A stretch of DNA of 26,447 nt from a virus: the IMG/VR virus record IMGVR_UViG_3300006853_000185, positions 1 through 26,447 of that record; one strand, given 5' to 3'. This document shows, one piece after another, positions 26 through 26,447 of this stretch; positions within the stretch are counted from its first letter, which is position 1; each line of letters starts with the position of its first letter. The notes below the pieces were generated by a model, which saw only the letters and a list, made by a program, of their open reading frames with translations, did not search any database and was not told where the DNA came from. Both the position numbers and the translations under genes were made by a program.

Positions 26-1120
26 ATGTTAATAATATTGGAAGGTCCTGATGGTTCTGGCAAGACGACGCTCGCGCAGGAGATCGCCGCTGAGCTGGGC
101 TGGACAACCAGTGACAAAATCGAGGTCTGGCACCGCGGCCGGCCGACCGGTCACCCACTGGATGAGTACCTGCGACCGCTGTACGGCTACCGACCCGGCA
201 CCGGTTACCACCTGATCCTGGACCGCTGGCACTGGGGCGAGGTCGTCTATCCGAAGATTCTCAACCGGCCGACGAGCCAGAACAGCGCTGTCTTCTGGGC
301 GATCGAGGCATATCTGCTGCGACTCGGTGCGTTGGTCATTAACTGTGACAATAACTTCACGTTCCAGTATCACAACATCTACCGTGAACGCGAGCTTGAC
401 GGTACTTCCGACGCCTGGCAGATCACTCACTTGAACCGGATTCGTGACGAGTTTTCTCGTATGATCTATCGCTCGGCGCTACCGTCGTTGACGTATTCCT
501 ACGGCCACGACCCCCAACCCAATATCATCGACTTAGCGCGCCGCTACGAGACTCAGGCACGTGAGCTCAACGACTTCGTGACGTACTCTGGTCCGGTCAA
601 ACCTCACATGCTGCTGCTCGGTGACGTTCGCAACCTGCAGCCGATCGATCCACTGAACTCACCGGCATTCGTTCCCACCAAGCAGTCGTCCGGTCACTTC
701 CTACTCAAGTCGTTGACGTCTCTAACGTCCCGCACATGGGTGCACGGCGTCGGACTGGCCAACGTCAACGACGTCGACAACGTGTATAAACTATGGCAGA
801 CTCTCGGGCAGCCGTCAGTCGTCGCGCTTGGTAGGAAAGCCCACGCCCGTACTCTCTACGTGCTAAACCAGGAATATGGTGTCGTTCCCCATCCCCAGTA
901 CGTCCGTCGGTTTCACCACGGTAAAAGTGAGCAGTACGGCTGGCTCATCTGTCAGGCCAGCCAGACGAGAGAGGACTACAGCAAGTGGCCACAGTCATCC
1001 ACGCCCGTGACGGGCGAACCGCCTACGTCGATGTCATCACCAAGCTCCGGCTCTTTGGCGTCAGCCGACCCAGTCGTAACGGCCCGACCCGTGACCTCGG
1101 ACACACCACTATCATCCTAG
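26..1120 (+). CDS. dNMP kinase-like P-loop protein fused to a uracil-DNA-glycosylase-fold domain
   Basis: Two domains are visible in 364 residues. Residues 1-190 form a P-loop kinase of the thymidylate kinase type, with Walker A GPDGSGKTT at 7-15 and a DRW..GE.VY stretch near 66-75 resembling the DR(F/W) motif of dTMP kinases. Residues 191-312 resemble the uracil-DNA glycosylase superfamily: an opening LLLGD strand (196-200), SSGHFLLKSL (221-230), ANVND (245-249), PSVVALGRKAH (263-273) and a VPHPQ motif (287-291) where family 4/5 enzymes have the catalytic-loop HP. The last ~45 residues are Ser/Pro-rich and overlap the next gene, so they may be out-of-frame filler. The kinase could supply dTMP or modified dNMP phosphorylation, or act on hydroxymethylated DNA bases. 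The kinase call is firm; substrate and glycosylase activity are inferred. The ATG at 26 places the P-loop at the usual N-terminal position. Confidence 0.8.
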   Translation: MLIILEGPDGSGKTTLAQEIAAELGWTTSDKIEVWHRGRPTGHPLDEYLRPLYGYRPGTGYHLILDRWHWGEVVYPKILNRPTSQNSAVFWAIEAYLLRLGALVINCDNNFTFQYHNIYRERELDGTSDAWQITHLNRIRDEFSRMIYRSALPSLTYSYGHDPQPNIIDLARRYETQARELNDFVTYSGPVKPHMLLLGDVRNLQPIDPLNSPAFVPTKQSSGHFLLKSLTSLTSRTWVHGVGLANVNDVDNVYKLWQTLGQPSVVALGRKAHARTLYVLNQEYGVVPHPQYVRRFHHGKSEQYGWLICQASQTREDYSKWPQSSTPVTGEPPTSMSSPSSGSLASADPVVTARPVTSDTPLSS

Positions 1121-1845
1121 ACGAGCCGTGCGACGCGCTACCTATCGACGTCGGTCGCGGACTCAGCGAGCGGATCGCCGCGCTAGAGGCGATCCAGCTA
1201 GTTGGCGCCTTCTCTGACCCCGACTGGCTCGTCGAGAGGGCTCCCCAGCTGTCTCCCTACAGGGAGCCGTCCGGTGCGTTCTGGGGCGCGTACGGACGCC
1301 GGATCGGCTGGCAGATCCGCGACGCCGTCGCCAAGCTGCGTGCCGACCCGTGGACGCGCCAGGCCGTCGCCACTCTCTGGGATCCCATGTACGACAACTA
1401 CCCGGAGAAGCGTGACTATCCGTGCACCGTCGCGCTCGGCTTCACGCTGCAGCCGTCGTTCACCGATAGCCGGCTCAACATGCACGTCACGATGCGCTCA
1501 AACGACGCGTGGCTTGGACTACCGTATGACATGTTTCAGTTCACCCAGCTCTTCCAGACCGTCTGCCGCTGCCTGGACGTCCGACCCGGCACGTACACTC
1601 ACACCGCGTGGTCGCTGCACCTCTACGACCGAGACGTCGACCGCACGTACGACGTCGCGCTAGCCGGCGACACCGGCTACCGGTTTGACCCGACCGGTTT
1701 CGGTGAACCGAACATGTCGTTTACCGACGTCAGCCAGCGGGCGCACGTGATCGCGCTGACCCCGGACAAGATCGACTGGGAGCTGACGCCGAGCGAGAGG
1801 TGGTACCGTGACGCTATCCATGGTAATTCGACCCAGCTGGCATGA
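985..1845 (+). CDS. ThyA-superfamily enzyme, probable dCMP hydroxymethylase or thymidylate synthase
   Basis: The 286-residue protein follows the thymidylate synthase fold throughout: E68 (in LEAIQLVG), FWGAYGRR, DYPC with catalytic Cys147, RSND (171-174), LGLPYD (177-182) and HLY (212-214). Compared with E. coli ThyA the nucleophile, phosphate-binding Arg-Ser and His/Tyr pair are kept. The residue equivalent to Asn177 is Asp182. In this superfamily Asn selects dUMP, and Asp is typical of dCMP-using enzymes such as T4 gp42, so dCMP hydroxymethylase is the favoured reading. An ordinary ThyA making dTMP is the alternative. The GTG start at 985 has a GAGAGG ribosome site about 11 bases upstream. 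It overlaps the preceding kinase gene by 136 nt and the following dCMP deaminase by 38 nt. The family call is very secure; substrate specificity is inferred from one key residue. Confidence 0.88.
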   Translation: MATVIHARDGRTAYVDVITKLRLFGVSRPSRNGPTRDLGHTTIILDEPCDALPIDVGRGLSERIAALEAIQLVGAFSDPDWLVERAPQLSPYREPSGAFWGAYGRRIGWQIRDAVAKLRADPWTRQAVATLWDPMYDNYPEKRDYPCTVALGFTLQPSFTDSRLNMHVTMRSNDAWLGLPYDMFQFTQLFQTVCRCLDVRPGTYTHTAWSLHLYDRDVDRTYDVALAGDTGYRFDPTGFGEPNMSFTDVSQRAHVIALTPDKIDWELTPSERWYRDAIHGNSTQLA

Positions 1846-2305: not shown

Positions 2306-4107
2306 CCGGTACCGGGGTACTTGACCGCGTCAAGCTTCACTACATCGAGTCGTTCGACGACGTCCAGGCGTACATCGACTGGTTCTCCAACAAGGTTTAT
2401 GATGACCCGATCGCCGTCGACACCGAGTCGACCGGCTTCTACTGGCACCGTGATGACTACGTCCGGATGGTCCAGGTCGGTGACGAAGTCGACGGCTGGG
2501 CAATGCGCTGGGACCGATTCTCGGGCCTGTTCGAGGCGACGATCGCCGCACACGAGGGTCCGATCGACCTGATGAACGCCAAGTTCGACTACGCGTTCCT
2601 GCGCAAGGCCGGCGTCAAGCTTAGGCAGCCGCTGATCCGCGACGTCGGTGTCATGTCGTACGTTCTCGAGCCGCACATGTCACGCGCGCTCAAGAACCAG
2701 GCCAAGCGGCACGTCGACCCGCGCGCCGGCGCGCTCCAGTGGCAGCTCGACGAGGCGATCGGTGGTCGCAGCGAGTGGACGTGGGCGACGATCCCGCACG
2801 ACTTTCCGCTGTACTGGCAGTACGCCGCGATGGACCCGGTGCTGACCGCTCTGATCCGTGAGCACCACTGGCCGCTCGTTCAGGAGCGCGCGCCGCGCGC
2901 CTATGAGATCGAGAACGAGTTCCAGTGGGTCGCGCTTAAGGCCGAGACGTACGGCGTCTGCATCGACGTCGACTACGCGGATCGGCACTACTCCAAGTTC
3001 ACCGCGTACTGCGAGGACGTCGAGCGATGGTGTGAGAGTGAGTACGGCGTCAAGCCGGGCAGCAACCAGGCCATCGTGCGCAAGCTGGTCGAGCTTGGTT
3101 TCAGTGAAGATCACTACTTCTCTAAGTCAACCGCCAAGGGCGCGGTCGCGCTCGACTCTAGCGTCCTAGAAGTCATCGATCACCCGCTCGCGCAGGCGGT
3201 TCTCCAGCGGCGGCAGCTGCAGAAGATCGCATCAACGTACCTGCGGTTCTACGTCGGTCACGTCGACTCGAACTCGCTGATTCACCCGTCGATCAACACC
3301 GTCGGCGCGCTGACCGGCCGGATGACCGTCTCGGAGCCCAACCTGCAGAACCTGCCGGTCCGCGGCACCAACCCAGCGCACAGGGTCGTCCGCAACTGCG
3401 TCGTCGCGCGGCCCGGTCACACGCTTATCATGGTCGACTTCGACCAGGTCGAGATGCGCGGACTGGCGATCGACTCCGGCGACGCCGGTTTGATCGCGGC
3501 GTTCCAGACCGACGAGGACTTCTTCGTCTCGATCGCGCGCCAGGTCTACGACGATCCGACGCTGGTCAAGGCGGACCCGCGCCGGCAGCCGGTTAAGAAC
3601 GGCATGTACGCCCGGATCTACGGCGCCGGGCTGGTCAAACAGGCCGCCACGGCCGGCGTGTCCGTCGAGCAGATGCGCTATGTCAACACGTCGCTGAACC
3701 TCAAGTTCCCGGGCATCGAGTCGTACGCGCGCGGCATCATCGACCAGGCGATCCGCGACGGTCGCAACGAGGGCGGACTGGCGTTCACGACCTGCTCGCT
3801 GACCGGCCAGCGTCACTACGCCGAGCGCGGCAAGGAGTACGCGCTGGTCAACTACAAGATCCAGGGGTGGGCCGCCAAGCTGTTGAAGCTCAAGGCGCTC
3901 GAGTTAGACGCGGCCGGTCTCGGTGACTACATCATCGCGTTCATCCATGACGAAATCATCTTTGACATGCCGAATGACCTGGTCCGTGACGCGGTGCACA
4001 CCATTCAAAAGATCATGAACGACACGACGATGTTCCCCGTCGCGATCACGGCCAGCGTCTCGACGGGGCAGCGGTGGGGAGAGAAGAAAGAGTGGAGTGA
4101 AGATTAA
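2302..4107 (+). CDS. DNA polymerase I (family A) with 3'-5' exonuclease domain
   Basis: A 601-residue replicative-type family A polymerase lacking the 5' nuclease domain. The DEDDy proofreading exonuclease is intact: D40/E42 (VDTES), N92-D96 (NAKFD) and Y174..D178 (YAAMD). The polymerase core has motif A at 379-386 (DFDQVEMR), motif B with K432, Y436 and Y440-G441 (KNGMYARIYG), and motif C HDE at 549-551. Tyr436 occupies the position of Phe762 of E. coli Pol I, as in T7 polymerase, so discrimination against dideoxynucleotides should be weak. The GTG start overlaps the dCMP deaminase stop by 4 nt, and the stop overlaps the next ATG (TAATG). It is the presumed main replication polymerase, acting with the helicase, SSB-like and nuclease genes downstream. 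Confidence 0.96.
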   Translation: MTGTGVLDRVKLHYIESFDDVQAYIDWFSNKVYDDPIAVDTESTGFYWHRDDYVRMVQVGDEVDGWAMRWDRFSGLFEATIAAHEGPIDLMNAKFDYAFLRKAGVKLRQPLIRDVGVMSYVLEPHMSRALKNQAKRHVDPRAGALQWQLDEAIGGRSEWTWATIPHDFPLYWQYAAMDPVLTALIREHHWPLVQERAPRAYEIENEFQWVALKAETYGVCIDVDYADRHYSKFTAYCEDVERWCESEYGVKPGSNQAIVRKLVELGFSEDHYFSKSTAKGAVALDSSVLEVIDHPLAQAVLQRRQLQKIASTYLRFYVGHVDSNSLIHPSINTVGALTGRMTVSEPNLQNLPVRGTNPAHRVVRNCVVARPGHTLIMVDFDQVEMRGLAIDSGDAGLIAAFQTDEDFFVSIARQVYDDPTLVKADPRRQPVKNGMYARIYGAGLVKQAATAGVSVEQMRYVNTSLNLKFPGIESYARGIIDQAIRDGRNEGGLAFTTCSLTGQRHYAERGKEYALVNYKIQGWAAKLLKLKALELDAAGLGDYIIAFIHDEIIFDMPNDLVRDAVHTIQKIMNDTTMFPVAITASVSTGQRWGEKKEWSED

Positions 4108-4367
4108 TGCAGTACTGGTCTTGGATTCTAGCCACGATCGGAATCACCGCAATGTGGCTTGCCGGTCGACATAACAAGCTCGGTTGGCTGATCGGTGTCG
4201 CTGCACAGATCATTTGGTTTGTTTACGCGATCGTCACTCGACAGTGGGGTTTCATCGCCACAGCGATCGCTTACAGCTTCGTCTACGCCCGTAACTGGTA
4301 CCGCTGGCGTCAGCTTGAACATGCTGTAACCAGTCCGGTAAGAGAGTCAGAGAGTGTGAGTATATGA
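4107..4367 (+). CDS. Small membrane protein, PnuC-like
   Basis: An 86-residue protein with roughly three hydrophobic segments (about 4-20, 25-43 and 48-63), separated by short charged or Trp-rich turns such as LAGRHNK and TRQWGF, and a polar tail. The repeated GW, IW and WYRW pattern, and especially the NWYRWRQ end, resembles half of a PnuC-type nicotinamide riboside/mononucleotide transporter. It is far shorter than a full transporter, so a different membrane role is possible. The ATG overlaps the polymerase stop by one base, and its own stop overlaps the RuvC-like gene by 4 nt. This shows co-translation within the replication operon. Function cannot be assigned from sequence alone. Confidence 0.75.
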   Translation: MQYWSWILATIGITAMWLAGRHNKLGWLIGVAAQIIWFVYAIVTRQWGFIATAIAYSFVYARNWYRWRQLEHAVTSPVRESESVSI

Positions 4368-9554: not shown

Positions 9555-10820
9555 GTGAAGAGACGAATCGGCTACGCCAAGCTCGGCCGCTCGATGCCGC
9601 TGCAGCTCGGTGACTGTGGCTCTAACGGCGGTGACGTTGAGATGATTCCGACGCTCCAGCTGCTCGCCGAGCGTCACCCAGACGTCGAGTTCGTTATCAT
9701 CGGTCGCAACTCCGGTGAGGAGCCGGCGCGCGTCGGCCTACCTGCCAACATCACCAATCCGTGGACCGGTTGGTGGCCCAAGATCCGCGCTGAGATGAAC
9801 GCAGCGAAGCTGAATCATCCGGCTCTAAGCGTCGACGAGCACCTACGACTTGCCGAGATCTTTGACCGGTACACACGCGACGCCTTTGTGCTGCTTGACG
9901 GCGTTGTTATGTGGCTTGGCCAGCACGGCACAACACACACTCCGCTGCCGTCAATTAAAGATCGCAGCGTCTTGACCAAACCATATGACTCATTGTCACT
10001 CTACGGCGGCTACCTGCTGCGCGGGATCAACGCGTGGCGCGACGTCGATCCGCATAATCGTGAGGAGGTGCTGCTCAACCCAGACCCGCGCAACGTGCCA
10101 AAGTACCGGGACGGCCGGTATCCGTGGCGGCACGCCGTCTTGAGCCAGCACGACCAGGTAAACGCGATTAAGCACGAGGAGGGTGACCGGGTCGTTTCGT
10201 CGACGGTTCTCAGCGTCTACTCGCGCCTGGAGATCTCGGGTCTGCTCCCTAGTACGCCGTTCACCAACCTCATTAAGTTCAATGACGACCACAACCGACC
10301 GCACGACTTCGGCATCGTGTTCAATGAGACACGGCGTGACGTCGCGCTCGAGAAGTCACGACGTTACATCCTAGAGAAGTGGGTGTTCCCGCTGTCTCCC
10401 GGCTTTATCTACGGACAATGGAGCGACGCAACTCGGCGGCAGCTCGGCATCCGGATTGAACCGATCGACGTGCTGAACTACTTCAGTACGATCCAGACCA
10501 CGCGCTGCACGTTGACGACCCCGTCATCTGGCTCCGGCTGGGCGACTGCCAAACCGTGGGAGTGCTTCGCCGCCGGCGTGGTCTGCTTCTTTCACCCAGC
10601 GTACGACGACCAGAACCACATACTCAACGACGCACCCTACGCGCTTGCGTCGTGGCTGCGCGTCCGTCACCCGATTGACCTACGTGACCGGATCCGCTAC
10701 ATGCGAGACAACCCAGAGTATTGGCAGGAAATCGTTCGGCTTCAACGCAATCACTACCTAAAAGCTATCGACGAGCTCAGCTACCTAACAAAGATCGAAC
10801 AGAGACTGGGACTGGACTAA
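9555..10820 (+). CDS. GT-B-like glycosyltransferase (possible DNA-base glycosyltransferase)
   Basis: 421 residues. The N-terminal half has a Rossmann-like layout (VEFVIIGRNSGEE near 48-60). The C-terminal half contains GSGWATAKPWECFAAG (326-341), which resembles the donor-binding 'K..E..A.G' segment of GT-B glycosyltransferases. The closing helices (RDRIRYMRDNPEYW) are also typical of that fold. A GTG start follows GAGAGGAGAGAGAAG. Its stop overlaps the ATG of a sugar nucleotidyltransferase (TAATG), so the sugar donor and transfer enzymes are probably co-expressed. Together with a dCMP-type ThyA homolog in the same early direction, glycosylation of modified DNA bases is a reasonable hypothesis. 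Another acceptor cannot be excluded. Confidence 0.68.
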   Translation: MKRRIGYAKLGRSMPLQLGDCGSNGGDVEMIPTLQLLAERHPDVEFVIIGRNSGEEPARVGLPANITNPWTGWWPKIRAEMNAAKLNHPALSVDEHLRLAEIFDRYTRDAFVLLDGVVMWLGQHGTTHTPLPSIKDRSVLTKPYDSLSLYGGYLLRGINAWRDVDPHNREEVLLNPDPRNVPKYRDGRYPWRHAVLSQHDQVNAIKHEEGDRVVSSTVLSVYSRLEISGLLPSTPFTNLIKFNDDHNRPHDFGIVFNETRRDVALEKSRRYILEKWVFPLSPGFIYGQWSDATRRQLGIRIEPIDVLNYFSTIQTTRCTLTTPSSGSGWATAKPWECFAAGVVCFFHPAYDDQNHILNDAPYALASWLRVRHPIDLRDRIRYMRDNPEYWQEIVRLQRNHYLKAIDELSYLTKIEQRLGLD

Positions 10821-11506
10821 TGGACGCGATAATCCTCGCCGGCGGGCGCGGCACCCGCGTCATGGAGCTGGCTCCCGAGTTCCACAAGCCGCTGCTGCCA
10901 GTCAACGGCGTCCCGATGGTGACGCTGGCCGTCGACCTGGCGCTGCGCGCCGGCGTCACGTGTCCCGTCGTCGTGGCCGCGCCCGCCAACACCGAGGCGA
11001 TCTGCGGCGCACTGGACGGCCGACCCGCGTTCGTCGTCATCCAGCGCCAGCCGCTCGGCGCCGGCCACGCGCTGCTGCTCGGGCTGCAGGCCAGTCCGCG
11101 CCCGCTCGTCGACTGCGATCGGGTGCTCGTGCTACTCAGTGACAACGTCTCGACGGACACCGACGTCACCGCGGTGATGCAACACCCAACCGCGATCGGG
11201 ATCCAGTACATCGAGCGGGTCAACGCGTTTCGCTTCGCGCGGCTGAACGACGACGGCCGCTGGTGCGAAAAGGAACGCCTCAAGCTTGACGGTCCGCCCG
11301 TAGCGTGTTGGGTTGGACCGTTCATCGGCTGGCGCAACCGAATGGTGCGGGTGCTTGCCGAGGCGGTCGCCGCGCGCAAGCCGAATGAAGAGGTCTACGT
11401 CGGACCCCACCTCGGTAACTTCATGTACAGCGAGACGAAGTGTCCCCTCGTGCCGGTCGACTCGCTCGACCTGGGCGTGACGGACGAGTACCGGAGGTTA
11501 ACATGA
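10820..11506 (+). CDS. Sugar-1-phosphate nucleotidyltransferase
   Basis: A 228-residue NTP-transferase of the RmlA/GlmU N-domain type. The signature LAGGRGTR is at 6-13, KPLLPV at 23-28, a metal-binding Asp in LLSDN near 108-112, and an LGAGHAL nucleotide-loop segment near 78-84. It would form an NDP-sugar from NTP and a sugar-1-phosphate. ATG 10820 is chosen because it begins MDAIILAGG, exactly where this family starts, and overlaps the glycosyltransferase stop by one base. An upstream in-frame start at 10721 would add residues out of phase with the preceding gene. It is the likely source of the activated sugar used by the adjacent glycosyltransferase and perhaps by the later glycan cassette. 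Confidence 0.9.
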   Translation: MDAIILAGGRGTRVMELAPEFHKPLLPVNGVPMVTLAVDLALRAGVTCPVVVAAPANTEAICGALDGRPAFVVIQRQPLGAGHALLLGLQASPRPLVDCDRVLVLLSDNVSTDTDVTAVMQHPTAIGIQYIERVNAFRFARLNDDGRWCEKERLKLDGPPVACWVGPFIGWRNRMVRVLAEAVAARKPNEEVYVGPHLGNFMYSETKCPLVPVDSLDLGVTDEYRRLT

Positions 11507-12317: not shown

Positions 12318-12329
12318 TACGGTTCCTCC

Positions 12330-13844
12330 GTGACGTATACGGCGATCGACTGCATGGGATTCGCCGGTGGCTTTACGCTCGGCGTCGTCCAAGCTGGCTT
12401 TAAGCTGATCGGCAAGCGCGAGAAGAAGGGCGGCTTCGGCGCCAAGAACTGCGAGGTCAATCGACACCTACTCGGTGACGGCTGGCAGACCGAGGCGTGT
12501 GATCCCAGCGAGTGGAGCGTCCCAGACGGGGGCGCTTCACTCGTCTTTGGTAACCCACCGTGTTCCGGCTTCTCGGTCCTAACGGATGAACGGTTCCGCG
12601 GCGCCGACTCGGCGATCAACCAGTGTATGTGGGACTTCGTCGAGTACGCCGGCCGCGTTAAGCCAGACATCGCGATCTTCGAGTCCGTCCAGCAGGCGTA
12701 TGGCCAGGGACGCGGCCTGATGCGCGCCTTACGCATTCGTCTAGACGGTCTTACCGGTGAACGCTACACGCTCTACCACGTGCTGCACAACGCGCTGTCC
12801 GTCGGCGGACCAGCGATGCGCAAGCGCTACTTCTGGGTCGCATCGCGGGTGCCATTCGGCGTCGACTGGCCCGAGATCAGTCGTACTCCCGTCCTAGAAG
12901 ACGTCATCGGTGACCTGCAGACTCTCGACCAGCGGTGGGACTCCCAGCGGTACTGGCTCGATCCGACGTGGTACTCACACCGGTTTCGTGACCGCTACGC
13001 CGACGGCTCATACTGGGTTGACGGCCACGTCTCGCTAGACGTCCCGTCGGTCCGCCGGACGCTCGACCTGCGAGACGGCGTCGAGTGGAATCCCGGCGAG
13101 TATATTCACACCGTTATGCGCCGGTACTTTGACACCCACGCTGACCTACCGCAGAGCTGGCACCACAAGCTAGATCAGCTCAAAAACCGCGACTTCCAGA
13201 TCGGTTTCACCGTTCCGATGATGTGGCGACCCGACCGACACGCACGTGTCGTCACCGGTGGGACTATGCTGCTCGGCGTCCACTGGGCCGAGCGCCGGAC
13301 GTTCACGCACCGTGAAGTTGCACGGATCATCGGTTTTCCAGACTCGTGGTTGATCGAACCGCTGCGAGGCACATCCGGATTGTTTATGACGTGGGGCAAG
13401 GGCATCACCGTCGACTGCGGTCGGTGGATCGCCAGCTGGGCGCGCCGGACGCTGGACGGTCAACCGGGCGCGCTGACCGGTGAGGAGATTGGCGCTGACG
13501 AGCGGCTAATTGACGTGACAAACGCCTGGAAGATGGCTTGTGGTACAGTCAAACTTGAACTTAACGCTAGGTGGAGGGAAGATATAGTGACTGAGACGGT
13601 TGAATCGCCGGTCGACGAGACGGCCAAGGGACGGCCACGCTCGGCCGAGACGGTCGAACGTGACCAGCGGGTCTTCGACACGCTGGCATCCGCCGGCATG
13701 ACTCGCACGGAACTGGCGGTGCAGCTGGACGTTCCGCCGAACCTGGTTTACCTAAGCCTGTGGCGCCTCAAGCGTGACTCGCGCGTCGAGCGCGTTCGGC
13801 ACGAGGGTAACTGGGTCTGGCAGCGCGTCGCCGGCGCGGTCTAG
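12330..13844 (+). CDS. Cytosine-C5 DNA methyltransferase with C-terminal winged-helix domain
   Basis: 504 residues. C5-MTase motifs occur in order: motif I CMGFAGGF (8-15), motif IV GNPPCSG with nucleophile C78, a motif VI variant FESV (117-120, normally ENV), motif VIII MRKRYFW (163-169), and late motifs HREVARIIGFPDSW and GKGITVDCGRW. Residues from about 440 (RTELAVQLDVPPN...SLWRLKRD) form a helix-turn-helix/winged-helix module not usual in this family. It probably protects phage DNA from host restriction. GTG 12330 is the only start that keeps motif I; it lacks a clear ribosome site, suggesting translation coupled to the upstream gene. A second start (13587) within it may give a separate protein. 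Confidence 0.9.
   Translation: MTYTAIDCMGFAGGFTLGVVQAGFKLIGKREKKGGFGAKNCEVNRHLLGDGWQTEACDPSEWSVPDGGASLVFGNPPCSGFSVLTDERFRGADSAINQCMWDFVEYAGRVKPDIAIFESVQQAYGQGRGLMRALRIRLDGLTGERYTLYHVLHNALSVGGPAMRKRYFWVASRVPFGVDWPEISRTPVLEDVIGDLQTLDQRWDSQRYWLDPTWYSHRFRDRYADGSYWVDGHVSLDVPSVRRTLDLRDGVEWNPGEYIHTVMRRYFDTHADLPQSWHHKLDQLKNRDFQIGFTVPMMWRPDRHARVVTGGTMLLGVHWAERRTFTHREVARIIGFPDSWLIEPLRGTSGLFMTWGKGITVDCGRWIASWARRTLDGQPGALTGEEIGADERLIDVTNAWKMACGTVKLELNARWREDIVTETVESPVDETAKGRPRSAETVERDQRVFDTLASAGMTRTELAVQLDVPPNLVYLSLWRLKRDSRVERVRHEGNWVWQRVAGAV
13587..13844 (+). CDS. Nested in-frame winged-helix protein, 85 aa (internal start in the methyltransferase gene)
   Basis: Inside the methyltransferase reading frame, a GTG at 13587 (codon 420) is preceded by GGAGGG at 13573-13578, eight bases away. 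This is a better ribosome site than the methyltransferase itself has. Upstream lies a possible extended -10, TGG-TACAGT (13541-13549). The product would be a free 85-residue protein: an acidic/basic linker, then a helix-turn-helix (MTRTELAVQLDVPPN), a second helix and a wing ending near WVWQRV. It could regulate the operon. The full-length fusion remains equally possible, since no stop separates the two. Confidence 0.5.
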   Translation: MTETVESPVDETAKGRPRSAETVERDQRVFDTLASAGMTRTELAVQLDVPPNLVYLSLWRLKRDSRVERVRHEGNWVWQRVAGAV

Positions 13845-18203: not shown

Positions 18204-19277
18204 CTACGTGCCGCTTGTTTCGCGTTCTAGCGTAACCGCGCGCGTCCACGCGTCCAGCCAGCGCCACGCGTTGCGCTCGATGGTCAGCTTGGCGGCGGCG
18301 TCTCGGCCGGCTAGCGCGCTCTCGGTGCGGCGGTCCGCGCTCTTAACCAAGCTATGAACGTACTTTCGCCACTCATGTGAATTTTTTGCGAGCAGACCGA
18401 CGCCAAGACGCGCCAAGCGAGAGTACTCAGCGCGCGGTGACATGACGCACGGAACGCCGACCGCCGCGTACTCCAGCGGCTTAAGCCATGACTTAGCGGC
18501 GTTAAACTTAGAGTCCGCCAGCGGCGCGACCCCGATACCGATCGTGTTAACCGCCAGGGGCCACGCGTTGATGTCCCTTATGACGTCCGTCGTGTCGATC
18601 GTGTAGCGCGTCGAGACGCCCAGCGCGGTATGAACGCCCGCCAGCGGGCCGGCGACACGGAACTGGCAGCCAAGCTGCAGCAGCTGCGCCATAGAGGGTC
18701 CCATAACCTGCAGGTCGGTCGGGTGTGAGTGCACCGAGCCAGCCCAACCGATGACGTTAGAGTCGGTATGTTCGATCTTCAGGTAGCGCTCGGGAACGCA
18801 GTTGCGCAGAATGTGTACCGGGGTCTTGGCGCCGTAGCGCGTCGCTAGCGCGTCGGTCGAGACCGTCACCAGTGACGCCGCGTCGCAGGCGAGCAGCGTG
18901 TTTTGCCACGAGTGTACCGCGTTGGGCCCGCTGGGATGCAGCGCGTGGAACGCTGGATTGGCCGGGTGGATGCACGTTAAGTCATCATCCATGTCGACGA
19001 CGACGGCGGTACCCGCGTTGCGGATGATCGGTATCGCCTGCACCAGGTACCGGTGCGTGACGCGTTGGAACACGATGACGTCCGCGTCCTGCGGAATCCG
19101 GACCTGGACAACGTGATCACCGTCGAGCTTGGCCTGCAGCATCTGGTCACGTTCCTGTGACGTGACGATCACGACGTCATGTCCCTGGCGCTGCAGCTCA
19201 CGCGCTGGCCAGATCAGCCGGTAGTAGCCGCAGCCGGTGGTGTCGGCCGGAAAGATGTAGATCTTCACCGGATCCAC
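18204..19277 (-). CDS. GT-B (GT4-type) glycosyltransferase
   Basis: 357 residues with a two-Rossmann layout: an N-terminal TTGCGYYRLIWPARELQRQGH acceptor-side motif, IGWAGS (176-181) opening the second domain, and the donor-binding stretch from GIGVAPLADSKFN (247-259) to LKPLEYAAVGVP (265-276), typical of group 1/GT4 enzymes with its conserved Glu. GTG start at 19277, overlapping a 33-aa membrane frame by 13 nt. It is the last gene of the minus-strand cassette behind the tail genes. It may act on a glycan attached to virion proteins, or less likely on DNA or host surface material. Confidence 0.85.
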   Translation of the reverse strand: MDPVKIYIFPADTTGCGYYRLIWPARELQRQGHDVVIVTSQERDQMLQAKLDGDHVVQVRIPQDADVIVFQRVTHRYLVQAIPIIRNAGTAVVVDMDDDLTCIHPANPAFHALHPSGPNAVHSWQNTLLACDAASLVTVSTDALATRYGAKTPVHILRNCVPERYLKIEHTDSNVIGWAGSVHSHPTDLQVMGPSMAQLLQLGCQFRVAGPLAGVHTALGVSTRYTIDTTDVIRDINAWPLAVNTIGIGVAPLADSKFNAAKSWLKPLEYAAVGVPCVMSPRAEYSRLARLGVGLLAKNSHEWRKYVHSLVKSADRRTESALAGRDAAAKLTIERNAWRWLDAWTRAVTLERETSGT

Positions 19278-19366
19278 CGGACCTCATCATAGTCGACGTA
19301 CCACATGCAGTAGCTGAGATAGAAGATCCATAAGCCAAGCAAGGCATCATACAGCAGTCTTACCAC
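19265..19366 (-). CDS. Membrane microprotein, 33 aa
   Basis: Between two glycosyltransferase genes, a GTG frame begins inside the stop region of the upstream gene (7-nt overlap), with GGAAGG 8 bases before it, and overlaps the next gene by 13 nt. The 33 residues contain one aromatic-rich hydrophobic helix (LLYDALLGLWIFYLSYCMWY) and a charged end. Its fit into an otherwise empty 82-nt gap supports it. Function unknown; it could anchor the glycosylation enzymes. Confidence 0.5.
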   Translation of the reverse strand: MVRLLYDALLGLWIFYLSYCMWYVDYDEVRWIR

Positions 19367-19962
19367 CGGTCCGGCCTTCCGCTCGTGTTGTTACCATGGT
19401 GGTGCCAGACCCAGGTCACCTCAGGAACGTGCAGAAACGCCGCGCCAACCCCCAGCAGCCGCAGATAGAAGCCCCAGTCGTCATAGTCGCTGTCCGGTGA
19501 CGTGGCCGGCGGACCGAACAGCGCCTGCTTGGCCAGGTTGGCGTGCACGAGAGACGTCACCGGTATGTATGACTTCTGACGCAGCAGGTCAGCGTCGAAC
19601 GGCTGACCGAAGCGTCCCCACTCCTCGCGCTGCGGAAGTATCTCGCCCCGCGCGTCGACCACGCGGCAGCCGGAATAGACCACAGTGGCACCGGACCGCA
19701 GCGCGTGATGCAGCAGGATCGTAAGGTGATCCGGTAGAAGCTCATCATCGTCGTCGAGAAACGCGACCCACGTCGTTGATATGTGATACAGCGCCCGGTT
19801 GCGCGTCAGCGCCGAGCCGTCGTGTCGCTTGTCGAACGAGATGACGACGTTCTCCGGCTGGTGAGTCTGCGCCGCGACGCTCGTGACCGCGCGCGTCAGC
19901 TCGAACCGACGCGTCGGGATATGCGGTATGATGACGGTTACCCTGTCCACAGCTGTCCCCAT
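19360..19962 (-). CDS. GT-A glycosyltransferase, family 2 type
   Basis: 200 residues. A VTVIIPHIPTRR start, an ALTRNRAL segment and the metal/nucleotide-binding acidic cluster FLDDDDE (70-73) define a GT2-type enzyme. DYDDWGFYLRLL provides the later acidic motif. The ending HHHGNNTSGRPDRW closely resembles the ending of the next gene upstream (20000 region), marking the two as paralogs. The ATG at 19962 has only a weak ribosome site. GTG 19950, with GGGGACA before it, is an alternative that removes four residues. Confidence 0.82.
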   Translation of the reverse strand: MGTAVDRVTVIIPHIPTRRFELTRAVTSVAAQTHQPENVVISFDKRHDGSALTRNRALYHISTTWVAFLDDDDELLPDHLTILLHHALRSGATVVYSGCRVVDARGEILPQREEWGRFGQPFDADLLRQKSYIPVTSLVHANLAKQALFGPPATSPDSDYDDWGFYLRLLGVGAAFLHVPEVTWVWHHHGNNTSGRPDRW

Positions 19963-19973
19963 TCAGTAACCCG

Positions 19974-20552
19974 TCACTGCCACCTGGTTGGCAGTCCGCT
20001 GGTGTGATGTCCGTGCAGCCGGTAGTGCCAGGTAATCTCACCGGTGCCGGCAAACTTCGCGCTGATGTTCATACACCGCAGGATGAACATCCAGTCCTCT
20101 CCCATCCAGTCTTGGTGAAGCGGACCATCCGGCATGAGAAAACCGGCCTCCTTGGCGATTCGCGTTCGTACCATGACATTCATCGTCGTGTGATGTGGCT
20201 CAGTGGGATTGAACTGCCGGCCGCGATGCATCGGAAACGGGTTGTTGCCGTCGAACCACGAGTACAGGAAGTCGGCACCGGTATCATGTTGAAGGTTCAA
20301 CAGCGTCTCAACGTGGTGCGGATACCAGAGGTCGTCGTCATCGAGAAAGGCAACCCACTCGGTCTGTACGGCGTCCAACGCCCGCTGACGGGTCCGCGCC
20401 GCACCCTCGTGATTACAGTCCAGCGCGACGGAGATGCCACCGTGCAGCGTCACCGTCTGCGCCTGCACCGAGCTGACGGCCTCTGACAGGAGGTTGCCGA
20501 CGCGCGGCGGAATGGCCGCGATCGCTGCCGTGACGTCTACCGTCTTCTTCAC
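19974..20552 (-). CDS. GT-A glycosyltransferase, family 2 type (paralog of neighbour)
   Basis: 192 residues with the same plan as the gene that follows it: an N-terminal strand, ARTRQRALDAVQTEWVAFLDDDD (acidic cluster 71-74), a GEDWMFILRC motif and a closing HGHHTSGLPTRWQ. The GTG start overlaps the stop of the upstream methyltransferase gene as GTGA. The pair probably arose by tandem duplication and may add successive sugars. Acceptor and donor are unknown. Location behind tail genes suggests a late, virion-related substrate. Confidence 0.82.
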   Translation of the reverse strand: MKKTVDVTAAIAAIPPRVGNLLSEAVSSVQAQTVTLHGGISVALDCNHEGAARTRQRALDAVQTEWVAFLDDDDLWYPHHVETLLNLQHDTGADFLYSWFDGNNPFPMHRGRQFNPTEPHHTTMNVMVRTRIAKEAGFLMPDGPLHQDWMGEDWMFILRCMNISAKFAGTGEITWHYRLHGHHTSGLPTRWQ

Positions 20553-21067
20553 TTAGCCAGAGCTCCCACGGCACACTGCCACTTGGGGCGCGCGTCAGCG
20601 ACCGGCCAAAGCAGCTTGACTTCATCCATATTCATCGGCACGACGCTCGACCAGCCCGCGTCTTCCAGCAGCTCAACGAGTCGCGTCTCGGTACACTCCC
20701 ACAGGTGAACGTCGCCAGCCCACCGGCCAGCGCCGAAGCGCAGCGAATCTAGCGTCGCGCCGTACTCGTCCGACCCGGTCTCACCGAGCAGCTCGCGGCC
20801 GCGGTCGACGTCCGGTCCAACGATCATGATCGCGCCGTTAATGACCATACAGTCGCGCAGCCGTGACAGCAGCGTCCACGCGTCTGCACGCGTCAGGTGC
20901 TCTAGGACGTGTCCCGCGTAGACGCACTCGACGCTACCCGTCGGCCACGGCAGCTCACCGGTCAGGTCGACACGCTGGTCAGCGCGGTGCGGCATTTCAG
21001 GTAGGTCGACGTTGAGCCAGCCGTTTGCGTAGCGGTCGCCGCAGCCTAGGTTAAGTTGCACGCTCAT
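20549..21067 (-). CDS. SAM-dependent methyltransferase
   Basis: A 172-residue class I methyltransferase with motif I LNLGCGDR (5-12), NVDLPEM as the acidic strand-2 end, VYAGHVLEHL as the post-motif helix (typical of Methyltransf_11/8-like small-molecule and sugar O-methyltransferases), and a C-terminal CTETRLVELLEDAGW segment. ATG with a perfect AGGAGG ribosome site. It lies between a sugar C-methyltransferase-type gene and two glycosyltransferases, so methylation of a sugar or glycan-linked group is the likely role. Confidence 0.82.
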   Translation of the reverse strand: MSVQLNLGCGDRYANGWLNVDLPEMPHRADQRVDLTGELPWPTGSVECVYAGHVLEHLTRADAWTLLSRLRDCMVINGAIMIVGPDVDRGRELLGETGSDEYGATLDSLRFGAGRWAGDVHLWECTETRLVELLEDAGWSSVVPMNMDEVKLLWPVADARPKWQCAVGALAK

Positions 21068-21072
21068 ACCTC

Positions 21073-22290
21073 CTACAGCAGGGTCGGCGCGGGAATCGGT
21101 AGGATCCAGTGGCCGCCGTCGATCGTGAACTGCTGCTCATTACGCATGATTGAACCGGCGTAGTTCCACGCGAGTAGCAGGTAGGTGTCAGTAATCTCAT
21201 GATCGACGACGGTCTGGTTGTAGATCTTTATTCCCGTTCCCGGAATGTAGCGCTCCTGCTTCGCTTCAGTCGTATCGGTGACGTAGCGTAGCAGCTCACC
21301 GTCGATGCCACAGAAGTTAAGCAGCGTCGTCGCCTTGGCCGGCGCGCCGTATCCAACAACTGCGTGACCGGCGTCACGTTCGTCAAGCAGCAGCTGCAGA
21401 AGCCGTTGTTTGAGCCGCTCAGCACGCCCCTGGAGCCCGAGGTAGACGTTCGTGTCCGTTAACCAGGCTTCAGAGCTGACGACGCTGGAGACTCGTCTAG
21501 AGACCTGACTCTGCCGGCGCAGCTTGACACGCAACGAGCCACCCTGTCGGTCAGTAAGCTGCGCGTCAACGACGTACAAGCCGTGGTTACGCGCCGCAGA
21601 GCGCAGACTGGTCAGCGAGAAGAAGTTGCGATGCTCGTGGTAGACCAGGTCGAACGCGTTATTGAGGATCAAGTCAGGTAGGTACTGCACCTCGACATAC
21701 ACGGTACCCTTGAACGCCAGCAACTCATCGATACCGGCGAAGACGTCAGAGACGCTCTCGACGTGCGCCAAGACATGGTTCGCGATGATGACGTCTGCGG
21801 GCCCGTGCTGCGCGTGAATCTCGTGTGCCAGGTTGCGGCCGAATGGCTTGACGACCGTCTCGACGCCGCGCTGCGCGGCGACCTCAGCCGGTCCGTCAGC
21901 TGGATCAACTCCAATGACACGCCAGCCCGCGCGCAAGAGCAAGTGTGAGAAATCACCGTCGTTTGACCCGATCTCAACTACGAGCGGCTTGCGTGCCAGT
22001 CCGCTGTCGCTTAGATTCCACTCGTTAAGAACGTCGCTGGCGTAGCGCGCATGATAGAGCGACAGCGGCTTGGATGCACTTGAGTAGAACGAGTAGCCCG
22101 AGCCGAATAGGTCCGGCACCACCTCGAGCAGCTGAACCAGGTGGCAGCCGGCGCAGACCGCCAGCTGCAGCGGGTAGTGCGTCACCGTCTCGTTGTCCTT
22201 GGTGTAGTTGTCCGCGATCGGCGACAGTCCCAAGTCAAGAACCAGGCGCAAGTCGTCGTAGTTGCACGCGCTGCAGCGCGTTCTCTTCAT
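21073..22290 (-). CDS. Sugar C-methyltransferase-type protein (zinc-binding, SAM-dependent)
   Basis: A 405-residue three-part protein: an N-terminal zinc module with CSAC (6-9) and a second CAGC pair in LGLSPIADNYT context, a central SAM domain with VVEIGSNDGDFS, and a C-terminal domain with GYGAPAKATTLLNFCGI. This order (Methyltransf_13 / SAM / Methyltransf_14) is that of NDP-sugar C-methyltransferases of antibiotic deoxysugar pathways and related modification clusters. The ATG at 22290 overlaps the upstream stop (ATGA) and is preferred to GTG 22302. It suggests the phage glycan carries a branched or methylated sugar. Confidence 0.87.
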   Translation of the reverse strand: MKRTRCSACNYDDLRLVLDLGLSPIADNYTKDNETVTHYPLQLAVCAGCHLVQLLEVVPDLFGSGYSFYSSASKPLSLYHARYASDVLNEWNLSDSGLARKPLVVEIGSNDGDFSHLLLRAGWRVIGVDPADGPAEVAAQRGVETVVKPFGRNLAHEIHAQHGPADVIIANHVLAHVESVSDVFAGIDELLAFKGTVYVEVQYLPDLILNNAFDLVYHEHRNFFSLTSLRSAARNHGLYVVDAQLTDRQGGSLRVKLRRQSQVSRRVSSVVSSEAWLTDTNVYLGLQGRAERLKQRLLQLLLDERDAGHAVVGYGAPAKATTLLNFCGIDGELLRYVTDTTEAKQERYIPGTGIKIYNQTVVDHEITDTYLLLAWNYAGSIMRNEQQFTIDGGHWILPIPAPTLL

Positions 22291-22910
22291 CGTTGTCCCC
22301 ACTTCGAGTTGAAGATCTCCTCGGCACGCAGCCGCATCTCGTGAGATTTCTCGGTCTTATAGCCGAAGGTCGTATGATGATAAGTGTCGATGTCAGCGAC
22401 GTAGACCCGCTTGCCGGCGTGCCTTGCCTCGAGACAGACGTCATCGTAGCCGTGAAATTCATAGCGTTCATCGAAGCGCAGCTCCTGAATCGCCCACGGC
22501 GAGAACACCATAAATGATCCCTCAACGATGTCGACGTCTCCCGCAGACCGGTCACCAAAGTGAAGAAGTGCGCTGTCGGTCGACTGGTGACCGATCGGGT
22601 CGACGTCCCACCAGTTAAGTGACGGTCCGCCCCCGGCGACACCGATGATTGCGATTTGCGGATCTGCCGCAAAGACGGAGATAATCATCGGTTCTGTCAA
22701 CGGATCAGTCATCTCGAGGTCATCGTGAAGTAGAACGACGGCATCCAAGTCATAGACTCGAAAGCCGTCTAGAATCGCGTTATACGCCACCGAGATCGAA
22801 ATCTGGTTAAACGCCGTTAGGACCGGTTGATTCTTTGGGATCCGCGGCTCGACGTACCGGTGAAACTTGTCCCACGTGCCGACGCAGCAGCCGTAGCCGA
22901 TCTTCACCAT
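22287..22910 (-). CDS. Glycosyltransferase, StrF-like/GT2 superfamily
   Basis: 207 residues from ATG 22910. The acidic motif VLLHDDLEM, AGGG and a WDVDPIGHQ segment, then FDERYEFHGYDDVCLEARHAG, follow the streptomycin-biosynthesis StrF-like glycosyltransferase layout, where an early HxD-type motif binds the donor. It ends with FNSKWGQR, like the next gene upstream (FALKWGRR). It overlaps the C-methyltransferase gene by 4 nt. The GTG at 22925 is a possible earlier start. Substrates are unknown. Confidence 0.75.
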   Translation of the reverse strand: MVKIGYGCCVGTWDKFHRYVEPRIPKNQPVLTAFNQISISVAYNAILDGFRVYDLDAVVLLHDDLEMTDPLTEPMIISVFAADPQIAIIGVAGGGPSLNWWDVDPIGHQSTDSALLHFGDRSAGDVDIVEGSFMVFSPWAIQELRFDERYEFHGYDDVCLEARHAGKRVYVADIDTYHHTTFGYKTEKSHEMRLRAEEIFNSKWGQR

Positions 22911-23611
22911 GGCCGCCGTCCCCACTTAAGCGCGAACGTCTCACCGTCGCGGCCGGCCTGCTCAGCGAGTGCGCCGCACGTCGTCGAGTTGGCTAGCGTG
23001 TTGAGCGGCGCCTCGCCCGGTAGCATCAGAACGCCGCCGGCTTGGATCGCTTGCCACTCAAAGTCAGTGTCGCCCCACCACCAGTGCATCTTCTCGTCGG
23101 CGCGCAGACCAAGCTCGCCGCGAACAACGAACGCCCACGGACACATACGAGTCATGATGTTGCCGTCGATCTGCGTCTTTAGGTGTGACATGCCGGCAGT
23201 CGTTTGTGTGTACGTGCACGCGATCGCGGGAACGTTCAGATGCTTTAGCGACTCCGTCGTCCGAAACAGCGCTCCAGCAACGTTGTCATACCAATTGGCG
23301 GGCAGTGATGTGTCGTCATTGAGGACCGCGACATCCCACAGCTTTTCACCAAACGCCTTGACGGTCATCTCGATGACGTTAAACGCCGTGTTCCACATCT
23401 TATAGAGGTGAGGCGGCTGCTCGTCATCACGGTGAACGATCGTCTTGACGTCCGGAACCTGCATACGCAGCCACAGCGAAGACAGAGGTAGGTCACTGGC
23501 ATTGTCGATAACGTAGACGAAGTCGACCTGGCCGGCTAGCTGGCGCAGCAGCGAGATCAGCTGTTCGTGACGGTTACGTGTTGGGATAATCGCGTATCGG
23601 GGGACTCTCAC
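22904..23611 (-). CDS. GT-A glycosyltransferase, family 2 type
   Basis: 235 residues. AIIPTRNRHEQL begins the nucleotide-binding fold, YVIDNASD is the usual second strand, VLNDDTSLP the metal-binding acidic motif, and MHWWWGDTDFEWQAIQAGG the later catalytic Asp region, all typical of GT2-like enzymes. GTG start. It is the first gene of the glycan cassette, 28 nt behind the tail gene at 23640, so it probably shares the late tail transcript. It overlaps the next glycosyltransferase by 7 nt. Confidence 0.82.
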   Translation of the reverse strand: MRVPRYAIIPTRNRHEQLISLLRQLAGQVDFVYVIDNASDLPLSSLWLRMQVPDVKTIVHRDDEQPPHLYKMWNTAFNVIEMTVKAFGEKLWDVAVLNDDTSLPANWYDNVAGALFRTTESLKHLNVPAIACTYTQTTAGMSHLKTQIDGNIMTRMCPWAFVVRGELGLRADEKMHWWWGDTDFEWQAIQAGGVLMLPGEAPLNTLANSTTCGALAEQAGRDGETFALKWGRRPW

Positions 23612-23639: not shown

Positions 23640-24320
23640 CTACGGCGTCTCGGTGATCGTGCACGTGATGACGTCGAAGGTGTCGATGTTAACGTTACCG
23701 GCACCGAGAAACTTACGAAAGCGCAACGTGCACTCGTAGACGCCGGCCGCGAAGTCCGCTGGCAGGTGAAACGCGGCCCCGACGTTCAGATGCTGCAGCG
23801 CGGTGTTATATATCATGTGTGTCGTCGTGTAGTCGGTACCGTCGATCTGGATCGCGCCCTCGACGCCGATGCCGTTAGCGCTAACGTACGCTGCCATGTT
23901 GTGATTGACGTGGATCCGACTTGACGTGTAGTACTTGACGAACCGGATCGTGGCCGGCGCGGCGCTGACCAGGACATCGTGAAACGCCGTGTCACCAAAA
24001 GCCTGCGCATCAGGAGCGATGTATGTCGACTCCTGCGACGGACCGGGTCCGCGGCTGAGGTTGTTGACGACGTAGTTTAGGTTTGGTGGCACCGACTGCA
24101 CCATTACCCGGTCGCCCGAAGCCGCCGTACCGGTGAGCAGCGTCGCCGGAACGATGACAACTGAGCTTCCCTCAAAGCCCTCACCGTCAAACTGGATCAT
24201 AAGTGACGTGCTTTCACCGGTGACTACCGTCGCCGGCCGAAGCTGCCACATCTCACCGCGATAGGACGGTGTCGTCTGCAGCGCGGCTACGCTCTCGGCG
24301 AGAACCAGGGGTGTCGTCAC
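23640..24320 (-). CDS. Putative virion/minor tail protein
   Basis: 226 residues from GTG 24320, which overlaps the upstream stop (4 nt) and has GGAGGG about 8 bases before it. A longer frame to 24410 would read through the end of the previous gene out of phase. The sequence is beta-rich, with frequent Thr/Val/Asn and few charged helices. No signature domain was found. Its position directly after the tail hub-like gene and in the late direction suggests a minor tail or receptor-binding-associated protein; this is inference. Confidence 0.65.
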   Translation of the reverse strand: MTTPLVLAESVAALQTTPSYRGEMWQLRPATVVTGESTSLMIQFDGEGFEGSSVVIVPATLLTGTAASGDRVMVQSVPPNLNYVVNNLSRGPGPSQESTYIAPDAQAFGDTAFHDVLVSAAPATIRFVKYYTSSRIHVNHNMAAYVSANGIGVEGAIQIDGTDYTTTHMIYNTALQHLNVGAAFHLPADFAAGVYECTLRFRKFLGAGNVNIDTFDVITCTITETP

Positions 24321-25393
24321 AAGAACGCCCTCCGTAGGGTATGACGCATCGGTTGAGTGACGTCGAGCGGCAACGTCCAGGCGATCTCCTGCCAGAGGGC
24401 GCTCTGCCACCGGATGACGTCGTACGAGTCATGACGTGGATCCGGCAGCGTCTCCAGCTCAACCTGCTGAAAGAGCGTCTGCGTCTGTACGAGTTGCTGC
24501 GCGATCGCCGCGGCCTGACTACGTGTGGTAACCTGGCGTGTCGTCACCTCAGATACGATAAAACCGCGGTTAGCGATCGAGTGCGGCGCCGAGCTGGGAA
24601 CGTCAGCCGACGCGATGACGGCTTCATCAAACACAGCGGCGCCGTTTCCGATAACGACGAACCGGTTAGGCGCGTTGATTAAGTTGTCGCTCTCGATGAT
24701 CTGGTCACGTATCACGTAGCCACCGGCATCGAAGTCAAAGTTCGGAATCTCGTGCGCGGGATCGAATGTGCGTCGCAGTTGAAGCACCGAGCTGTTATCG
24801 AACCACGGTGATAGGTAGTCTCCGTCGACGGCAAGCTGGTCAAGTACCTGTCCGCCGCGTGTGCCGGCAGCCCATGATCCCAGTGTCGTAAACTCTGACG
24901 GACCGGCGATGTAGAAGGCGATGGGATACTGTAACAAAAAGCGCGTCAGTGCGGCCGACGCAACCTCACCGGTAAGCGAGTTGGCGCCGAACGCGTTCGG
25001 AATCTGCTGGTCAATGATGAATCCCTCGTCGTAGAACGAGGCGACCGACTGGTTGCCGCCGCTCAGCCGAAACCGCGCCCAGTCGGACGGGACGTACCGT
25101 CCGAGCGGAAACTCCTCCCCCTTGATGACCATAAAAAGCTGCAGACGTGACGAGATGCTGTTGAACGCGGCCGTGTCAGCGGCGTCAAGGGTAACGCCGC
25201 TGAGGGTACGCTTGATCGTTGTCAGCGTGTTGTGCTGCAGAGACGCCCCCTGGTTGATGACCGGATGTATCTCACGCGTGTAACCGGTCACCGCGTCTAC
25301 GAGCTCATAGCGTAGCGTCGCTGACCGCTGGCCAACGTACGTCGCGCCGTCAAGGTGAGCGTTAGCTCTCGTTCGTGGGAATCTGCTCAACAT
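24317..25393 (-). CDS. Minor tail protein, baseplate/tail-hub-like
   Basis: 358 residues. The first ~110 show a beta-rich layer (ATLRYELVDAVTGYTREIHPVI, GVTLDAADTAAFN), followed by a hub-like middle (DGDYLSPWFDN, YVIRDQIIESDNLINAPNRFVVIGN). A closing VELETLPDPRHDSYDVI segment is characteristic of siphovirus tail hub proteins (XkdQ/gp27-like domains). It overlaps the membrane protein gene upstream by 32 nt and the next gene by 4 nt. ATG start with GCGGGTGA before it. Structural role is likely; exact position in the tip is not certain. Confidence 0.72.
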   Translation of the reverse strand: MLSRFPRTRANAHLDGATYVGQRSATLRYELVDAVTGYTREIHPVINQGASLQHNTLTTIKRTLSGVTLDAADTAAFNSISSRLQLFMVIKGEEFPLGRYVPSDWARFRLSGGNQSVASFYDEGFIIDQQIPNAFGANSLTGEVASAALTRFLLQYPIAFYIAGPSEFTTLGSWAAGTRGGQVLDQLAVDGDYLSPWFDNSSVLQLRRTFDPAHEIPNFDFDAGGYVIRDQIIESDNLINAPNRFVVIGNGAAVFDEAVIASADVPSSAPHSIANRGFIVSEVTTRQVTTRSQAAAIAQQLVQTQTLFQQVELETLPDPRHDSYDVIRWQSALWQEIAWTLPLDVTQPMRHTLRRAFL

Positions 25394-25649: not shown

Positions 25650-26447
25650 TCACGCCGGATCAAACGGACTGGCTGTGTCCGTCGTCTGTATGACCTCGAT
25701 CTCCGCGAGGTAGATCGTCCGGTCACCCTGAACGACGCCGTCCGGTACGATGACCGTTGCGAACCAGCGGTTGCCCAGTTCGTCGCGGACGCAGACGTAG
25801 TCCAAGTCGGCCCACGCCAAGTCACGCAGCTGACGGAAGTTCGCTAGACTCGGCAGCGCGATCGCCGCGTTGTTGACCAGTATCGTGCGCTTGAAACGCT
25901 CACCGCCGCGTTCAAGCGGTCGCACCGCCATGAAGAAGTCTCGGCCGAACAGCCGTTGCAGCGAGACGGTGTCAGCCTCGGGGAAGCTGAACAGCTCGGC
26001 CGGCCGGTTCTCCCACTGCATAACATATGCCAGGCTGGCGGCCACGCTCGCGTTGCTGGTGAAGATAAGTACCGAGTTACCCGCTCCGGGCGCGTTGAGC
26101 GTGACACCCGGTGCCGGGATCGTTCCCGAGCCAGTTACCCAGGGTCCCGCAAAGTCCAGGACGTTCAGCGTCCGGATCCGGTACAGGCTGAGTACACCGA
26201 CGCGCGCCTCAAAGTCGCTGAAAGCCGTGACTAGCGGATCTGTAGACAGCATGACCGTCTGCCAATCGGTGAGAGCGTCGGACCGCTGGATCTCCAGCGC
26301 CGTAACCGACGTATTCACAGGAGTAGCGATGATCTCAGCTTCACCATGCAGAGTCCACACCCGGCCGGCGGCGTCAGTGAAGGTCGTTGTACCGGCAGCC
26401 TGCAGCCTGAAGTCCGGGTTAGCCACCGCTGAGCCGGCGATGCCGTT
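25650..26447 (-). CDS. Minor tail protein, 5' end cut by window edge
   Basis: The frame stays open to the right edge of the window. A GTG at 26426 could start it (MANPDFRL), but seven in-frame codons before it are also open, so the real N-terminus is probably outside. The visible 265 codons are beta-rich with repeated Ig/FnIII-like strand patterns (TWSLxxG, VLSLYRIRTLNV) and end in FDPA. Direction and neighbours place it in the tail module. Function beyond a structural tail protein is not supported. Confidence 0.7.
   Translation of the reverse strand, partial: NGIAGSAVANPDFRLQAAGTTTFTDAAGRVWTLHGEAEIIATPVNTSVTALEIQRSDALTDWQTVMLSTDPLVTAFSDFEARVGVLSLYRIRTLNVLDFAGPWVTGSGTIPAPGVTLNAPGAGNSVLIFTSNASVAASLAYVMQWENRPAELFSFPEADTVSLQRLFGRDFFMAVRPLERGGERFKRTILVNNAAIALPSLANFRQLRDLAWADLDYVCVRDELGNRWFATVIVPDGVVQGDRTIYLAEIEVIQTTDTASPFDPA

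Follow-up and report, generated by a model that had tools for sequence, protein, structure and literature searches.

We describe a cassette of seven minus-strand sugar enzymes in the linear viral contig IMGVR_UViG_3300006853_000185 (26,447 bases, analysed at its full length and hereafter called the window), which probably serves an actinobacteriophage as an island for virion glycosylation and is transcribed as the last part of its late (head and tail) operon. The observed basis of this assignment consists of enzyme families, motif conservation, synteny and the absence of membrane helices. Dozens of uncultivated actinophages have the cassette as well, and the chances are about even that a large group of these phages decorates its particles with an oligosaccharide holding a 3-C-methyl-branched deoxysugar, of a type known from antibiotics and some bacterial surfaces, the island being exchanged and placed at varying points among the head and tail genes. 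If true, virion glycosylation would no longer be confined to a few cultured mycobacteriophages but would take in a broad set of soil actinophages, whose chemistry is richer and methyl-branched; this would also bear on how soil phages protect or tune their particles. This enzyme set has no report from named isolated phages of the actinobacterial host group, although systems of this kind are already known, and it offers concrete enzymes for testing in cultured relatives, namely Zuko, KimJongPhill and a Micromonospora strain.

The plus strand of the window carries replication genes, an endolysin and a WhiB-type regulator, while the minus strand, read the opposite way, carries tail genes followed by the cassette in the order GT1, GT2, CMT3, MT4, GT5, GT6, GT7 (Table 1), that is five glycosyltransferases, a sugar 3-C-methyltransferase of the TylC3/TcaB9 type and a second methyltransferase. 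An earlier note on this DNA had described seven sugar-enzyme genes lying behind tail genes on the same strand with overlaps, and all of this was found at 18204-23611. GT1 and GT2 overlap by 22 bp, GT2 and CMT3 by 16 bp, and MT4 and GT5 by 4 bp; the remaining gaps measure 5, 11 and 82 bp, the largest lying between GT6 and GT7, and 28 bp separate the last tail gene from GT1. Promoter and terminator predictions in the cassette region were in no excess over shuffled sequence. Further upstream, the product truncated by the record end matches a 1042-aa protein of a related locus (L045), encoded there after the tape measure gene. The last tail protein, as judged from its sequence, is probably a tail-tip or receptor-binding protein; its AlphaFold model was too poor for use (pLDDT 57.6).

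Table 1. Minus-strand genes of the late region of the window
Feature	Position	Strand	Description
GT1	22904..23611	-	GT-A-fold glycosyltransferase, first cassette gene
GT2	22287..22925	-	Glycosyltransferase, Glyco_tranf_2_5
CMT3	21073..22302	-	Sugar 3-C-methyltransferase, TylC3/TcaB9 type
MT4	20549..21067	-	Small class I SAM methyltransferase, presumed O-methyltransferase
GT5	19974..20552	-	Family 2 glycosyltransferase, GT6 paralogue
GT6	19360..19962	-	Family 2 glycosyltransferase
33-aa hydrophobic ORF	19265..19366	-	Fills GT6-GT7 gap; putative, not conserved
GT7	18204..19277	-	GT-B-type glycosyltransferase, final gene of late operon
Last tail gene	23640..24410	-	N-terminal part conserved, C-terminal part variable (alignment of relatives)
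Tail protein	24317..25393	-	phrog_1887 tail protein, E 2.8e-9
C-terminal part of large (about 1050 aa) protein	25650..26447	-	Cut by record end

Four of the glycosyltransferases were assigned by profile matches. GT2 exceeds the curated Pfam cut-off for Glyco_tranf_2_5 (E 9.5e-8) and its HDDLE motif is conserved in 37 sequences. GT5 and GT6 match both Glycos_transf_2 in Pfam (E 2.8e-10 and 8.4e-11, respectively) and phrog_14775 in PHROG (E 3.6e-34 and 1.6e-36), while GT7 matches phrog_7162 (E 4e-41) and is 37% identical to gp165 of Arthrobacter phage Atuin. GT1 has no Pfam or PHROG match; its AlphaFold model (pLDDT 93.8) adopts a GT-A fold for which Foldseek retrieved GlcAT, RmlT and others at probability 1.0, with a TMq of up to 0.68 (RmlT). 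A DD pair is invariant among 28 GT1 homologues, which also share a WW..D motif, and GT1 is 36% identical to the gp108 glycosyltransferase of Streptomyces phage Zuko.

CMT3 harbors, in this order, the zinc-binding, SAM and C-terminal domains of its class (Methyltransf_13, Methyltransf_23 and Methyltransf_14; best E 2.9e-42), and matches over its full length the D-mycarose 3-C-methyltransferase (4rv9, E 9e-67) and TcaB9 (3ndi, E 4e-66). The zinc cysteines and a YHEH motif are conserved in 47 sequences, the latter aligning with YDEH of TcaB9; we take these Tyr-x-Glu-His residues to be the catalytic, active-site motif. This homology to sugar 3-C-methyltransferases backs the methylated-sugar step that had been proposed from the sequence. 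TylC3 and TcaB9 serve antibiotic sugar pathways, whereas the CMT3 gene sits in a phage late operon. MT4 matches the methyltransferase family phrog_6636 (E 1.1e-8) and retains an NLGCG motif conserved in 17 sequences, with no sequence relative in the PDB. The conserved enzyme motifs are intact in every copy in the window.

A search with CMT3 retrieved 53 viral loci, of which about 13 have a tail context, and the closest of these keep the order tail - GT1 - GT2 - CMT3 - MT4 - GT5 - GT6 - GT7. To avoid selecting relatives on CMT3, GT1 was then used as the sole query, yielding 80 viral contigs. Head or tail genes lie upstream of the cassette in 53 of them, with a major capsid gene 1.3-3.2 kb upstream in 27 and tail genes upstream in 26; in another 15 a portal gene is found about 2-6 kb downstream, four contigs end too early and eight have no assigned setting. 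The arrangement is beyond chance because gene order and catalytic motifs are kept in distant relatives. In G003, a relative of 98.9 kb, a single strand carries portal - capsid - major tail - adaptor - tape measure - tail - cassette. GT1 relatives are also present in genomes of Micromonospora, Streptomyces and Lentzea, and a locus of Micromonospora sp. CPCC 205371 (L164) reads tape measure - tail - GT1 - methyltransferase - epimerase - GT - GT5 - GT7 - WhiB. A nucleotide search against named phages gave no match, and a scan with the tail protein upstream of the last tail gene confirmed no locus.

In the capsid-type loci, the sugar-enzyme set is flanked by the major capsid gene on one side and head-tail adaptor genes on the other. 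A gene of the GDP-mannose-4,6-dehydratase type accompanies it in 13/27 of these loci, and one locus (L021) additionally has a dTDP-4-dehydrorhamnose 3,5-epimerase. An NDP-sugar 4,6-dehydratase would yield a 4-keto-6-deoxysugar, the substrate type expected for TylC3/TcaB9 enzymes; a dehydratase partner for CMT3 is seen in relatives only, many of which bring their own. Two variations in gene content were also observed. In some capsid-type loci (e.g. L101, L106, L117 and L124), GT1 apparently corresponds to the C-terminal region of a larger protein, which has another glycosyltransferase-like domain, with a DTD motif, in its N-terminal region. In L045, a gene for a HIT-domain protein (12326-12706) separates GT5 from GT6.

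None of the seven enzymes has a predicted membrane helix (the top 19-residue hydropathy is 1.72) and a flippase is absent from the cassette, which makes cytoplasmic transfer likely. From these features we infer the acceptor protein, the transfer order, the sugar and the benefit as follows. One glycosyltransferase, acting in the cytoplasm, would attach the first sugar to a freshly synthesised head or tail protein, and the others would extend the glycan. CMT3 would make a branched 3-C-methyl deoxysugar from an NDP-4-keto-6-deoxysugar before transfer, and MT4 would cap a hydroxyl. The keto-sugar could come from the host (e.g. dTDP-4-keto-6-deoxyglucose from RmlB) or from genes beyond this fragment.

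Virion proteins best fit as acceptors, as indicated by the cassette's place as the last part of the late operon and by the recurrent head and tail neighbours in relatives. The earlier note had suggested tail or capsid proteins: virion proteins are indeed the best-supported targets, given these neighbours, the lack of membrane helices and the Corndog precedent described below, but the evidence does not choose between tail and capsid. No acceptor stood out by the Ser/Thr content at the C-termini of head and tail proteins, and no glycosylation site was identified. A place next to virion genes also means late expression, and other late roles would be served by that as well.

There is precedent for such modification. 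According to later papers citing Freeman et al. 2023 (PMC11652166, PMC12619734, PMC12363180, PMC11600133), virion glycosylation was shown for the mycobacteriophages Che8, Corndog and Myrna. Cluster O phages have an O-methyltransferase and, in tandem, three glycosyltransferases, which modify the capsid and the tail tube (PMC11600133), and virions of the Corndog group are reported to be glycosylated on both (PMC11600133, PMC12363180). Dylan (Corndogvirus), whose genome we compared as a stand-in for Corndog, has the order portal - O-methyltransferase - three glycosyltransferases - protease - capsid. Che8 gp108 resembles a glycosyltransferase joined to a methyltransferase, and the profiles of GT5 and GT6 match its first part, the glycosyltransferase domain (GT6: probability 95%, E 2e-8), while profile comparison detected no relation of GT1, GT2 or GT7 to Che8 gp108-110. 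The Che8 glycosyltransferases, whose action on the virion was shown by others, sit far from the structural genes of that phage, so a position beside structural genes is no requirement for virion glycosylation. The cassette resembles the systems of Che8, Corndog and Myrna in combining several phage glycosyltransferases with a methyltransferase, but differs in comprising seven enzymes, including a sugar 3-C-methyltransferase, placed after tail genes. The Streptomyces phages Zuko and KimJongPhill share homologues of GT1, GT6 and GT7 and a methyltransferase between two glycosyltransferases; however, no relative of the C-methyltransferase was found there, and their glycan genes are split over the two genome ends, one set adjoining the terminase.

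Concerning the benefit, glycosylation is reported to shield mycobacteriophages from antibodies (PMC11652166), and the earlier note had invoked hiding from antibodies here. This is an unlikely selective reason in soil phages: since they rarely meet antibodies, adsorption, stability or protection from bacterial defences would be likelier, and for the particle the most likely benefit of the glycan would lie in adsorption, stability or shielding, not in evading antibodies.

The strongest competitor to virion proteins as acceptors is the phage DNA, in which phage-made 5-hydroxymethylcytosine would receive a methylated oligosaccharide that blocks restriction enzymes; we consider this unlikely. As in the cassette, phage DNA glycosylation pathways employ several cytoplasmic glycosyltransferases, and multi-sugar DNA modification by phage enzymes has been reported (Pyle 2024, as cited in PMC12619734). 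The phage that carries the cassette also has a separate plus-strand set of genes that may modify DNA and that the earlier note had missed. The thymidylate-synthase-like protein encoded at 985-1845 (+), with LGLPYD and RSND residue patterns and the CMP hydroxymethylase MilA as its best PDB match, is probably a dCMP hydroxymethylase, because it has the cytosine-marking Asp of MilA and T4 dCMP hydroxymethylase and the deoxy-marking Ser of deoxy-substrate enzymes (PMC5175136). A glycosyltransferase-like gene at 9555-10820 (+), with a weak Glyco_trans_1_2 match and only one distant relative in a named phage, adjoins a nucleotidyltransferase-like gene (10721-11506), and a C5-cytosine methylase (12330-13844) is not far; together they may form a module for DNA glycosylation. 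This glycosyltransferase-like gene co-occurs exactly with the hydroxymethylase-like gene: both are present in 5/25 cassette-bearing records and neither in the other 20, several of which measure 59-158 kb, bearing in mind that the five are close relatives and that all records may be fragments, in which absence is no proof. The cassette therefore differs from DNA glycosylation pathways in having no hydroxymethylase linkage in 20/25 records, and TET family matches were found in 0/20 records. What it accompanies is head and tail genes, not these two plus-strand genes, which are better candidates for DNA modification than the cassette, weakening the case for DNA as its acceptor. Elsewhere on the plus strand, a small membrane protein (4107-4367) gave a weak NMN-transporter match.

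It is slightly less probable still that the cassette alters the host envelope (a wall polymer or glycolipid) so as to exclude other phages or release progeny. Some phages are known to alter the surface sugars of their host with glycosyltransferases, bacterial surface glycans can contain C-methyl sugars, and one relative lies within a Micromonospora genome assembly, so some of these phages may be temperate. However, unlike serotype conversion of the gtr type, the cassette has no membrane helix, no flippase and no membrane or lipid-linked glycosyltransferase, and its late position and the association with capsid genes in relatives also argue against an envelope role. Very improbable is a diffusible or intracellular glycoside instead of a macromolecule conjugate, as the closest solved relatives of CMT3 might suggest through their antibiotic sugar pathways, given that nearby aglycone genes are absent and linkage to virion genes is frequent in relatives.

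The microprotein that the earlier note had placed in the cassette is likely the 33-aa ORF of the GT6-GT7 gap, which is its best candidate and looks codable: it runs from a GTG at 19366 to a stop at 19265, beginning in the GT6 stop and ending inside the GT7 start. It fits the gap but stays putative and is not conserved, relatives having at this junction another small ORF or no gap at all. A 50-aa ORF at 19350-19198 was also considered and rejected; its GC3 of 0.47, versus 0.69-0.80 for genes, marks it as probably non-coding, and its database matches in L042/L094 overlie the GT7 start there.

Against one relative, G001, identity is 62-84% for the cassette proteins, whereas 21 other proteins of the window have a median of 53%, the neighbouring tail protein has 43% and the last tail protein 30% (one-sided Mann-Whitney p 0.0002 for cassette versus other proteins, only a guide as neighbouring genes are non-independent). 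Identity to G003 varies within the cassette, reaching 85% for MT4 and 79% for GT6 and only 50-57% for GT1, GT2 and CMT3. On the simplest reading of these identities, both the island and single genes would have been exchanged between phages.
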